Source: Halorussus halobius
GTDB lineage: Archaea > Halobacteriota > Halobacteria > Halobacteriales > Haladaptataceae
Direction: 5' to 3'
NCBI RefSeq assembly: GCF_004765805.1
Contig: NZ_SBIU01000003.1
Span: 744,001-808,000 of the forward strand
Length of the DNA stretch: 64,000 bases
The position numbers and the translations under genes are program-made. Numbering within the stretch: position 1 is the first letter of the stretch; each line of letters begins with the position of its first letter. Under the pieces are notes generated by a model. It did no database searches. It saw only the letters and a program-made list of their open reading frames with translations, and had not been told where the DNA came from. Shown in pieces: positions 6,642-63,220 of this stretch.

Positions 6642-7085
6642 GAAAGCCCCCGCCCGCTCGCTGTGTATTGTTGGCTCGGTCGGTCGCGTCTCGATTACCG
6701 TGGTGAACGACACCCCGAAAGCCCCCGCCCGCTCGCGGTCGCTCAGCGACATATCGCGGGCCTCTCTGCACCGCCCGGCCCGCGATAGCGGTCGCTGAGT
6801 CGACCACGGCCTTCGGCCGCGAGCGGGCGGCCCCTTTCAGTCCCGCCGCCACGGAGTTCGGGCGGTCGAGCGCGACCGGTGGACCGTCGGTCGAGCGCGA
6901 GTGCCACGTCCTCCCCAGCCGACTGCGTTGCTCGGCCGTCGCTTCGCTCCGGCCTGCGCTACTCGTCCACCGTCGGAGCAAGCTCCGACGAGCCGTCGGT
7001 CGCGTTCGCTCCCGAAGACCTCGCGCGGTCGGCGCGGCGCATGAACGCGCCGCGCCAGCGCGCGCCGGAGTCGGACGGTCGAACT
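6642..7085 (+). repeat. Hairpin-rich intergenic element, copy 1 (forward)
   Basis: Two leader boxes reading GAAAGCCCCCGCCCGCTCGC start at 6642 and 6717, 75 bp apart. The second opens a perfect 12-bp outer stem: CCGCCCGCTCGC at 6725-6736 with GCGAGCGGGCGG at 6819-6830. Inside is a 10-bp hairpin (ATCGCGGGCC 6753-6762 with GGCCCGCGAT 6777-6786) around loop TCTCTGCACCGCCC. A small hairpin GGCC-TTC-GGCC follows at 6808-6818, then CCCCTTTCAG. The tail to about 7085 holds GTCGGAG/CTCCGAC (6972-6989) and GGCGCGGCGC/GCGCCGCGCC (7031-7056). The tail aligns with copies at 46.1-46.3 and 48.0 kb. It separates btuC from btuD. Confidence 0.75.
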
Positions 7086-15184: not shown

Positions 15185-15327
15185 AACGTGAGTCTTCGGG
15201 TTCGAGTGTTCGACTCTTTTTCGTCGTTCAGAGCCACTCGCGGGCCGACGGAACGACCCGGAGCGCCGTCGCGACGAGGTAGAATCCGAGAGCGATTGCG
15301 ACGACGCCGGAACCGAGACGCGTCCTC

Positions 15328-15570
15328 GAACGCCCTCGGCGCGCTCTCCAACGACAGGTCAGCAACTACGGCCCCGAAAGCCCTCGGCGCGCTCTGCGAC
15401 GACAGGACCGCAACCGACTCCTCGAAAGCCCTCGGCGGGCTCGCGGTCGCTCTGGCGGATATCCGACGGACGTAGTTGCGACGGATAGGGCCGCCAGAGA
15501 CGACCACGGGCCTCCGGCCCGCGAGCCCGCCTCGCCCTTTCAGTCCGCCGAGGTGGTGGTTGTGTCACCG
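15328..15570 (+). repeat. Hairpin-rich intergenic element, copy 3 (forward)
   Basis: Three leader boxes (GAACGCCCTCGGCGCGCTC, then two starting GAAAGCCCTCGG) begin at 15328, 15376 and 15424, exactly 48 bp apart, with diverged spacers. The last one enters an 11-bp outer stem (GGCGGGCTCGC 15434-15444 with GCGAGCCCGCC 15521-15531) enclosing an imperfect internal stem. A triloop hairpin GGGCC-TCC-GGCCC sits at 15508-15520 after CGACCAC, then CCCTTTCAGTCC. Outer-stem bases differ from copy 1 but still pair. It lies between two convergent genes. Confidence 0.75.
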
Positions 15571-15635
15571 CCCGCGACGGAGGAGGGGTCGAACTGGCCC
15601 TACCGTCGTCGTCCCTGCGCTTCGATTGGAGACGC

Positions 15636-45715: not shown

Positions 45716-46080
45716 GAACGCCCTCGGCGCGCTCTCCAGCGATACAATCACTGCAACCTCCTCGAAAGCCCTCGGCGCGCTCTGCTACATTGGAACCACA
45801 AACACAGCCCAGAAAGCCCTCGGCGCGCTCTGCTACATTGGAACCACAAACACAGCCCAGAAAGCCCTCGGCGCGCTCTGCTACATTGGAACCACAAACA
45901 CAGCCCAGAAAGCCCTCGGCGCGCTCGCCCGGCCGGGACTCGCTGCGCTCCTCGGCCGCCGGCCTGCGGTGCTTGCGTCGTCCAGGCCGGACCGACCCCG
46001 CCTCGCCCTTTCAGTCCACCAGGGTTGCTGGCTGTGTCACCTGCCGAACCCGACGTTTCCAGGCCGTGGCGCGACTACCG
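45716..46080 (+). repeat. Hairpin-rich intergenic element, copy 4 (forward), with 48-bp array
   Basis: Leader boxes start at 45716, 45764, 45812, 45860 and 45908, all exactly 48 bp apart. The first is GAACGCCCTCGGCGCGCTC, the rest begin GAAAGCCCTCGGCGCGCTC. The three units from 45764 to 45907 are identical; the first spacer differs. The body after 45908 ends in CGCCCTTTCAGTCC (about 46000-46013) and GGCTGTGTCACC, shared with copy 3, but its outer stem is not paired. It meets copy 2 tail to tail. Confidence 0.75.
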
Positions 46081-46089
46081 AGCCTCCCA

Positions 46090-46475
46090 GTCCGGCGCGT
46101 GCTGGCGTCTTGGCGAGCGAAGCGAGCCAAGGCTCGTGGGAGCTTGCTCTCACGGCGCGAGTTCATCTCGCGCCAAACGCGCGAGGTCGTCGGGAGCGAT
46201 GCGCGGCGCTTCGCGCCGCGAACAGCGAGCGGTGAAACCGCGAGCAAGCGACCGACGGCTCGGAAGACGCGGTTTGTCTTCCGGTGGATGAGGACCGCAG
46301 CGAAGCGAGGACCGCAATCGGTTGGGGAGGCCTGTGGCTCGCTGTCGCCGGTCGGGTGGGATTGAAAGGGGCCGCCCGCTCGCGTGCAGTTCAGTCGTCC
46401 GTGCAGGCTCTATTCCGGCCTGGCGGTGCGGAGAGGCCGGAATATCCTAAACAGCGACCGCGAGCGGGCGGGCTC
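46090..46475 (-). repeat. Hairpin-rich intergenic element, copy 2 (reverse)
   Basis: Reverse copy related to the one at 6.6 kb. The outer stem is 13 bp perfect: CCGCCCGCTCGCG 46372-46384 with CGCGAGCGGGCGG 46459-46471. The internal hairpin is TATTCCGGCC (46411-46420) with GGCCGGAATA (46435-46444); its loop matches 12 of 14 bases of copy 1 although the stem differs. The tail has GGAAGAC/GTCTTCC (46262-46282), GGCGCGAG/CTCGCGCC (46154-46174) and the block 46290-46344 that recurs inverted at 48001-48055. Confidence 0.75.
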
Positions 46476-46520
46476 TCTACGAGGAACCCGGAGAAGGCGA
46501 GATGGTCAATAGGTGGCGAG

Positions 46521-48000: not shown

Positions 48001-48110
48001 CGGCGAGCCTCACACCTCCCCAACCGCTTGCGGTCCTCGCTTCGCTGTGGTCCTCAGCCCTCGCGCGTCTTGGCGCGACACGAGGTCGCGCCACCGCGCG
48101 CCAAACCGAT
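48001..48110 (+). repeat. Tail fragment of hairpin-rich element, copy 5 (forward)
   Basis: Bases 48001-48055 are, reversed, about 85% identical to 46290-46344 in copy 2. The hairpin GGCGCGAC/GTCGCGCC (48072-48092, loop ACGAG) follows, then CCGCGCGCC. It takes the place of the tail hairpin of copies 1 and 2 with yet another paired stem sequence. No leader box or outer stem is found upstream, so it is a truncated copy. Confidence 0.65.
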
Positions 48111-49482: not shown

Positions 49483-49565
49483 CGGGAGTTAGTAAGGACG
49501 GCGGACGAAAGGGGATTCTGGTTCGCGCGTCGAAAGCCGCCGGGCAGACTCGGTGCCGGCCGACG

Positions 49566-51434: not shown

Positions 51435-52784
51435 TCAGACCGTCCGACGAACCACGTTCACGACTTTCTCGCTGACTCCGGGCGTCGCTCGCGCCATCGC
51501 GCCGATCAGCACGTAGACCCCGAGGTCGCGGTCGAGCCACGACGCCGAGATGCCGTCGTCGCTGGCGTTGCCGGCGAGTCGCTCCTCGGCGTACGCGAAG
51601 TCGCCGCCGATCTCCGAGAGGAGCGTGCCGCTGAGAGGGTCGGACTCGACGCCGGACGCGACCGCCTCGAAGGCTCGCTCGCGGATAGTCCGCACGTCGT
51701 CGGCGGTCTCGACCGTGACGTGGTCGCCGTCGGCGACGCGGTCGCACAGGAGTTCGAACGCCCGGATTCGGACCAGCGTCTCGTGGACCGACCGGACCGC
51801 GCTGGCCAGCCGACCCGTCGCACGCTCGTCGTCGAGGCCGTCGGCGTACTCGAACGCCCGGGTCAGGTCGGTCAGCGCGCTCGCGACCGGCGTGCCCTCG
51901 ACGTCGCGGTCAACGAACGACGAGGCGTCGTCCGGGTCGCCGTCGGGCAGCGATTCCCGGCGGTCGTCGAGGGTCGCGACGAGTTGCTCGACCGCGCTCT
52001 CGAACCCGCCGCGAATCCGCCGCGAGTCGTCGAGCGACCCGGCGAACCGCCCGTAGAGGTACTCGGCGTCGTCGAGCGCGACCCGCGCGTCCGCGATTCG
52101 GCCGGCGAGGTCGCCGACGGTGAAGGGGTTCTCCGGCCTGTGAGCGCTTCGCTCGCCCGCGCCCCGGAGCCGTCGGACCGCGAGCGCGACGAGGCTCTCG
52201 ACCTCGGCGTGGACCAGCACCGCTCGGACCGAGTCGTCGCCGACGTAGCGCCAGCGCCGCCGGAATTCGTCGACCCCGTCCCGGACGTCGGGGACCCCGG
52301 CCAGCACGTCGTCGGCGGTCAGCCCCTCGTCGATGGCCGCCCACGCGCCGGCGACGCCCCGAGCGCTCTCGCGGGCGTCCCGGAGCCGGTCCATCGTCTC
52401 GAAAGCCGAGTCCGCGTCCGGCGCGCCCTCTAACTCCTCGGTCGCGTCCTCGTACCGCCGGGAGAGTTCGGCCCGGATCGCGCCGTTGGGGACCGCTTCG
52501 CGGTCGAGCGGCGCGGGCACCGCCGACAGCGACTCGCGGGAGTCGGCGGCCGACTCGTCCAGATACGACTGCTCGATGTCGACCGGCAGCGTCTCGGCGA
52601 CCGACGGCGGGTCGGTCGAGAGCGCGTCGGCGTACGCCTCCGGGTCGATGGTCGGTCCGTCCTCGCCGTCGTCGCCGCCGAAGGCGTTACAGCCCGCGAG
52701 CGCCGCGCTCCCCGCGAGCGCGACGAACCCCCGGCGGGTCACAGCCACCGACCGACTCTCGGAGCCGGCGCGCCGGTCGGTCAT
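51435..52784 (-). CDS. Tat lipoprotein, helical, unknown function
   Basis: A 449-residue exported lipoprotein: twin arginines in VTRRGFVALAGSAALAGC and lipobox LAGC. The mature part is mostly alpha-helical and acidic, with no catalytic motif recognised and a final hydrophobic stretch GVYVLIGAMARATPG. It overlaps the upstream lipoprotein gene by 4 bp (ATGA), so the two work as a coupled pair on the outer face of the membrane. Confidence 0.8.
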   Translation of the reverse strand: MTDRRAGSESRSVAVTRRGFVALAGSAALAGCNAFGGDDGEDGPTIDPEAYADALSTDPPSVAETLPVDIEQSYLDESAADSRESLSAVPAPLDREAVPNGAIRAELSRRYEDATEELEGAPDADSAFETMDRLRDARESARGVAGAWAAIDEGLTADDVLAGVPDVRDGVDEFRRRWRYVGDDSVRAVLVHAEVESLVALAVRRLRGAGERSAHRPENPFTVGDLAGRIADARVALDDAEYLYGRFAGSLDDSRRIRGGFESAVEQLVATLDDRRESLPDGDPDDASSFVDRDVEGTPVASALTDLTRAFEYADGLDDERATGRLASAVRSVHETLVRIRAFELLCDRVADGDHVTVETADDVRTIRERAFEAVASGVESDPLSGTLLSEIGGDFAYAEERLAGNASDDGISASWLDRDLGVYVLIGAMARATPGVSEKVVNVVRRTV

Positions 52785-63019: not shown

Positions 63020-63112
63020 CGACGCCGGTTGCCGGACGGGGCACCGCACGCGGATACGCGCGACAACGACTCGGTGCGCTCGGCGAATCCAGCAGCGTCC
63101 CGGCGTCGGAGA

Positions 63113-63134
63113 GCGCGCCGAGGGCTTTCGAGAA
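63113..63134 (-). repeat. Single leader box of the hairpin-rich element, reverse
   Basis: Read on the minus strand it is GAAAGCCCTCGGCGCGCTC, identical to the box in copy 4. No outer stem or tail is found beside it. It lies between the VTT gene and prefoldin beta, so a lone box can exist without the body. Confidence 0.6.
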
Positions 63135-63220
63135 CCCGCCGTCACTCGGACTCGCCTCTCCGAACACCGTCGGCGGACCGAAAGCGGGGGTTTTTCAGTC
63201 CGGGTCGCGTCCGTCGAGGT

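Follow-up and report, generated by a model that had tools for sequence, protein, structure and literature searches.

Intergenic hairpin repeats of a Halorussus genome as probable old copies of an IS6-type MITE family with a self-complementary interior

Between the genes of a 64-kb stretch of the Halorussus halobius genome lie repeated elements whose hairpin stems differ from copy to copy and nevertheless stay paired. This raises the question of what kind of element these repeats are and what keeps them foldable. In a first-pass annotation they had been read either as a noncoding RNA or as a hairpin-dependent mobile DNA. The window, meaning the whole 64-kb stretch that was analysed, comprises positions 744001-808000 of contig C2 of the genome G000.

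Copies in the window and spread of the family

Four cores were located in the window with a covariance model built in this analysis (Table 1). The plan that the first-pass annotation had described as common to the copies was recovered, with left boxes, stems, internal hairpins and right boxes in place. The core of copy 1 is arranged in the order GAAAGCCC, outer stem P1, P2/P3 hairpin, P4 hairpin, P1' and CCCTTTCAGTCC, and its left unit starts 75 bp ahead of an identical box at 6717. In copy 4 the left box is degraded, the right box reads CCCTTTCAATCC, and the right end faces copy 3. Pairing is perfect in the outer stems CCGCCCGCTCGC (6725/6819) and GGCGGGCTCGC (15434/15521) and likewise in the internal stems ATCGCGGGCC/GGCCCGCGAT of copy 1 and TATTCCGGCC/GGCCGGAATA of copy 4 (46411-46444, minus strand), the loops of which agree in 12 of 14 positions when compared by eye. 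The three tail hairpin stems were also located, the third at 48072-48092. The tail had been described as common to copies 1 and 2, and this had to be corrected: the tail boxes CTCCCCARCC and CAGCRCGCGCC are absent by the 15.4-kb copy, and the tail actually belongs to the 6.6-kb copy, the minus-strand 46.4-kb copy and a lone module at 48.0 kb. This lone module, composed of CTCCCCAACC, CTCGCGCG and the GGCGCGAC hairpin, lies between predicted genes, and a tail can occur by itself.

Table 1. Positions of the elements and their parts in the 64-kb window
Feature	Position	Strand	Remarks
Copy 1, left array unit	6642..6716	+	GAAAGCCC, 5' half of outer stem and spacer
Copy 1, core, type I	~6717..6843 (model match from 6716)	+	103.5 bits; DNA fold z -8.4
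Copy 1, P1 5' arm CCGCCCGCTCGC	6725..6736	+	3' arm at 6819-6830
Copy 1, P3 hairpin ATCGCGGGCC/GGCCCGCGAT	6753..6786	+	14-base loop
Copy 1, right part and hairpin-rich tail	6844..7085	+	
Copy 1, tail elements	CTCCCCAGCC 6911, CTCGCGCG 7020, hairpin 7031-7056, CAGCGCGCGCC 7056	+	
Copy 2, left array	15328..15423	+	two 48-bp units
Copy 2, core, type I	15424..15546	+	113.9 bits; DNA fold z -5.7
Copy 3, left array	45716..45907	+	four 48-bp units
Copy 3, core, type II interior	45908..46017	+	24.9 bits
Copy 4, tail	46094..46358	-	CTCCCCAACC 46320, CTCGCGCG 46178, hairpin 46154-46174, CAGCACGCGCC 46094
Copy 4, core, type I	46359..46480	-	100.3 bits; DNA fold z -5.3
Lone tail module	48016..48092	+	covariance model finds no core there
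Fifth, weak model match	52135..52200	-	22.6 bits, E 0.0004
Relic	63061..63171	-	terminal repeat 63155-63171, degenerate with 4 mismatches; single array unit 63111-63129; lacks a good core hairpin (14.8 bits with the model, E 0.06)

The right box with at most one mismatch occurred seven times in the window, against 0.54 occurrences expected. No recognisable terminal repeats flanked any of the window cores, so that the identity of the window copies rests on their shared interior. Throughout the family this interior is built from modules. A tandem series of left units, 48 or 75 bp long and each opening with GAAAGCCC or GAACGCCC and the 5' half of the outer stem, is followed by the core (GAAAGCCC - P1 - branched hairpins - P1' - CCCTTTCAGTCC) and, in some copies, by the hairpin-rich tail. 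The interior of the core is either of the P2/P3 type (type I) or of a different type (type II), and some copies carry extra arms at the junction.

The exact right box CCCTTTCAGTCC was found 51 times in the window genome (32 forward, 19 reverse; none with the reversed-pattern control) and in 187 of 293 genomes of the order, representing 65 of 87 genera (control, 0 to 2 per genome and strand). Matches to the type I model were obtained in at least 135 of the 293 genomes at E <= 0.001; up to 12 candidates were scored per genome, so these counts are minima. Among the matches listed for a 15-base pattern were Halorussus, Halosimplex, Halonotius, Halovenus, Haloarcula and others, and scattered non-haloarchaeal matches to this pattern were taken as chance. 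The same pattern was present in 34 stretches of viral contigs. A plasmid collection gave no match to an element of the related genus g31. When the genes beside the elements were compared at 117 loci for a recurring family, the 25 largest clusters (at most 10 loci each) contained no transposase and, as judged by eye, represented ordinary multi-copy or housekeeping families.

The arrangement of neighbouring copies varied. A frequent arrangement at loci L094, L113, L135, L201 and L263-L291 is that of two cores in facing orientation, the right boxes being connected through a short palindromic linker (CCCTTTCAGTCCRCCAGG...CCTGGYGGACTGAAAGGG or an ATCC variant) to give a double-headed element. At locus L242 (G114:C1:1922300-1932500) several copies are packed into about 7 kb; two of these are oppositely oriented and share 98.7% identity over 157 bp, and the cluster looks like recent local spread. 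Loci L246 and L247, on contigs C5 and C10 of G041, share 3,092 identical bp including an element, which is either a duplication or an assembly artefact.

Terminal repeats, target duplications and IS6-type elements

In g31 the copies end in terminal repeats of about 17 bp, GGYNGTGTTCARATAAG, and the elements are 184-536 bp long. The terminal repeat (up to two mismatches, within 700 bp) was searched for at 217 box sites and was present on the left of 45 and on the right of 45, compared with 2 and 2 in the wrong-orientation control; since double-headed elements count twice, the 217 sites are not all independent. The sites in g31 accounted for 38 left and 37 right repeats at 44 sites (control, 2 and 2), the window genome for 1 and 6 at 50 sites, and other genomes for 6 and 2 at 123 sites (control, 0 and 0 in both groups). 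Paired ends were accompanied by target duplications of at least 7 of 8 bp at 18 of 29 loci of the related genus, and at 14 of these all 8 bp matched. Three pairs of the 18 loci share their site between genomes, which leaves 15 distinct insertions. For one element, L287 of G059, the joined flanks were continuous in G103 (95%) and in G172 (94%), two genomes of the same genus, but split in G059 itself, and the site was thus empty in both of the other genomes searched. The relatives G059, G103 and G172 have no exact right box, yet gave 22, 26 and 29 model matches (E <= 0.01).

Transposases of the IS6 type (PF13610, DDE_Tnp_IS240) were matched in 9 of 10 genomes, with 38 matches in total and 30 loci analysed. 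Eleven of the 30 loci had the same paired ends as the elements, and six of the eleven had duplications matching in 8 of 8 bp. Five of these six IS6-type elements are 697 bp long, and one of the six is located in G017, a genome of the window's genus. No transposase match was obtained in G285, which contains 156 exact right boxes, and the sole match in the window genome is broken by a stop. In the window genome itself, locus L019 has ends with 3 and 2 mismatches that are 223 bp apart and a 7/8 duplication. At L048- the ends have 0 and 1 mismatch over 218 bp, and the duplication matches only after one end is shifted by one base.

The window repeats are thus very probably old copies of a haloarchaeal IS6-type MITE family with a modular, DNA-structured and self-complementary interior. 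An IS6-type transposase would act on the MITE ends and move them in trans, as the shared end sequences suggest. The proposal of a hairpin-dependent mobile DNA was therefore right as to mobility; the signs of that mobility are TIRs and 8-bp duplications shared with IS6-type insertion sequences, and a mobilisation signal in the hairpins is putative.

A similar element, MITEHarch3, is presumably haloarchaeal, judging from its name. It is entered in ISfinder under the IS6 family according to the accessible part of PMC6807381 and, compared by description and not by sequence, it is likewise short and transposase-free. For the IS6 family, 8-bp duplications and two MITEs of 227 and 336 bp are given in the available portion of PMC7986276. 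Insertion sequences of archaea are also assigned to this family in the literature consulted (PMC6807381, PMC7986276, PMC3119063). The present family differs from these MITEs in that their descriptions, in the corresponding parts of both sources (PMC6807381, PMC7986276), give neither a covarying internal fold nor persistence after loss of the ends. The MITEs of Haloquadratum walsbyi have TIRs and often duplications, and are mobile without a functional transposase in the genome; they and the PATEs resemble the present elements in being transposase-free, but a covarying branched interior is not among the features described in the accessible text of PMC3119063. In literature covered by title or by the start of the abstract, with ISfinder and most subscription papers outside this scope, the interior was undescribed, and literature searches with box, array-unit or TIR sequences yielded nothing related by title. 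The first-pass annotation had named a known IS end or MITE as the explanation that would count against it. The kind of element is indeed already known, an IS6-type MITE; what is unusual, and is left unexplained by that kind, is the covarying interior that persists at one site after the ends were lost.

Covariation of the core and the btuC-btuD site

The type I stems covary strongly. In 40 aligned cores 93.4% of the cells pair, compared with 78.3% after shuffling, and both sides had changed in 168 cells, compared with 52.4; none of 500 shuffles reached either value. A second alignment of 106 model matches, taken from 100 chosen loci, fitted to the structure and including weakly matching type II cores, was paired to 94.0% (shuffled, 75.5%), showed double changes in 29 of 31 pairs and contained 503 cells changed on both sides (shuffled, 163). 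Sliding the pairing partners in this alignment decreased pairing to 29.9-42.3%. The compensatory base changes first noticed by comparing a few copies were thus borne out against shuffled controls, and the figures apply to the type I fold. As single-stranded DNA the three type I cores of the window fold far better than shuffles; for the type II core at 45.9 kb the fold did not surpass that of shuffles (z -0.6). Conservation extends to the unpaired boxes and the junction bases (AT / AG), that of the right box being partly due to how the copies were chosen. Among the g31 copies, 237 of 260 cells in 20 distinct cores are Watson-Crick pairs. Their stems vary from copy to copy, with matching changes on the two arms, and covariation is therefore not confined to old copies.

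The 6.6-kb copy is situated between btuC and btuD. Of 18 genomes of the genus that were searched, 17 had a btuD match, and 15 of these carry a core in the same orientation at this junction; ten genomes of other genera had a junction of 0-137 bp with no core. In a FastTree phylogeny of both proteins the two core-less genomes are nested, G017 as the sister of G074 (support 0.87) and G142 as the sister of G066 (0.98), so that one gain and two losses are the simplest history. The best match to the terminal repeat in the 30 flanks of the 15 cores had 5 mismatches once (L075; shuffled mean, 7.6) and 6-9 otherwise. At the same site 437 of 465 pairs are Watson-Crick, and the right box is less stable (CCCTTTCGGTCC, CCCTTTCATCC and others). 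For most of the time since the genus arose, the insertion appears to have persisted without its ends. The loop class of P3 changed at least seven times on the tree, however the doubtful genome G082 is classed; that hairpins were replaced as wholes suggests that copies exchange them.

Persistence is established for the btuC-btuD site alone; the 15.4-kb copy was present in 1 of 14 genomes with a readable junction. Between a psh-like gene and ocd, corresponding to window positions 15185-15635, 9 of 14 junctions contain a 27-residue ORF (like MTDVERKKNETKAGTNSSFIAAVMIAA) as detected by pattern; this ORF was not detected in the window genome, where the 15.4-kb element occupies the junction.

G017 has no exact boxes and G142 has two, with one model match each (in G017 at E = 0.008), compared with 80 exact boxes in G074, the sister of G017, and 51 in the window genome. 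The other copies of G017 and G142 were presumably lost rather than never gained; loss is established at btuC-btuD. By synteny, three of five G074 elements could be compared with G017, and none was present there. The single G097 element detected by script was absent from G142, the detector being one that misses imperfect cores such as the btuC-btuD core of G097 itself. G017 retains IS6-type elements with the same ends despite the near-absence of copies.

Maintenance of the pairing

Departures from pairing in the 106 aligned rows comprised 40 G.T, 41 A.C and 142 others. Isolated departures flanked by intact pairs numbered 18, 37 and 69, respectively, and the 60 best rows contained 8 G.T and 17 A.C isolated departures. 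Control stems from tRNAs had 27 G.U and no A.C; these stems came from 17 kept ARAGORN predictions out of 22 in the loci analysed, including one doubtful tRNA-Ser, and the ARAGORN brackets accept G.U and so favour it. A fold kept at the RNA level should produce a strong excess, well beyond 2:1, of G.T if formed by the plus strand and of A.C if formed by the minus strand. No strong wobble preference was evident on either strand from the departure counts and the tRNA control. The excess of A.C over G.T among isolated departures (37:18) may hint that wobble pairs are weakly tolerated on the opposite strand, which at the btuC-btuD site is the transcribed strand; departures there were 12:3 (A.C:G.T). 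Relative to genes, with orientations taken from home-made codon-usage gene calls, 51 core-like places were in tandem one way in 17 cases and the other way in 12, divergent in 13 and convergent in 9. Two of the 51 (L042 and window position 49499), which overlap predicted genes, probably do not represent copies. Pairing looks to be maintained at the DNA level, because G.T and A.C are about equally frequent in the cores (40:41), compared with 27:0 in tRNA stems, and because the orientation is mixed.

Covariation is usually taken as proof of a functional RNA, and here it was found in the interior of a mobile DNA with no strong wobble preference. This calls for caution in RNA discovery and makes the counts of G.T against A.C a usable test.

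Self-complementarity would be kept in the DNA form, as a cruciform or a single-stranded hairpin. Copies that exchange hairpin cassettes may maintain part of the pairing, correction of imperfect palindromes by template switching perhaps adds to this upkeep, and selection for a foldable interior during mobile life would also contribute. The fold may then have been shaped while the elements were mobile and later kept complementary by copy exchange and palindrome correction. Host use of the interior fold is possible. The family is a natural system in which to study how palindromes are kept intact in archaeal chromosomes and whether transposons, once dead, turn into chromosome-structure sites.

The upkeep might also involve no selection at all, template switching and gene conversion between copies leaving covariation as a mutational by-product. 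We regard this as quite conceivable, though short of probable: correction acting on DNA should leave G.T and A.C departures in equal number, as was seen, and P3 hairpins were swapped as units at an orthologous site, but correction alone does not explain the conserved unpaired boxes and junction bases (AT / AG).

Bacterial REP/BIME sequences occur as many intergenic palindromic copies with facing pairs and hairpins. The same features were found here; the present family differs in having the ends and duplications of a DDE transposon. As with REP/BIME, the host may have taken over old copies as intergenic DNA-structure sites, folding being selected independently of transposition, a possibility that we put forward with some doubt. 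It would account for the btuC-btuD copy, which is present in one orientation in 15 of 17 genomes, has kept 437 of 465 pairs Watson-Crick while its terminal repeats eroded, and changed its P3 loop class at least seven times. However, this copy is dispensable, since it is missing from G017 and G142, two genomes that are nested in the tree and nearly free of copies at other sites. Cassette exchange could moreover preserve stems without selection at each site, and the other copies are lineage-specific. Tentatively, the branched DNA fold born in a MITE may be a lasting intergenic fixture of haloarchaeal chromosomes that matched changes and hairpin replacement keep foldable at fixed sites long after mobility is lost; the near-copyless G017 and G142 would then look as if a factor reading or protecting the fold had been lost.

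A structured noncoding RNA, one of the two readings of the first-pass annotation, or an RNA regulator is improbable. Strong covariation and stable folds would agree with it, but the ratio of 40:41 against 27:0 in tRNA stems and the mixed orientation to genes disfavour it, as does an Rfam scan of the window, which gave no match at gathering thresholds. Movement as single-stranded DNA via hairpins, by an IS200/IS605-type, PATE-like or REP/RAYT element, is very improbable in spite of the hairpin-rich structure and high copy number, as the mobile copies have TIRs and 8-bp duplications and PATEs are described without either in the accessible text of PMC3119063. Membership of the IS605-derived PATEs was rejected, since TIRs and target duplications are present.
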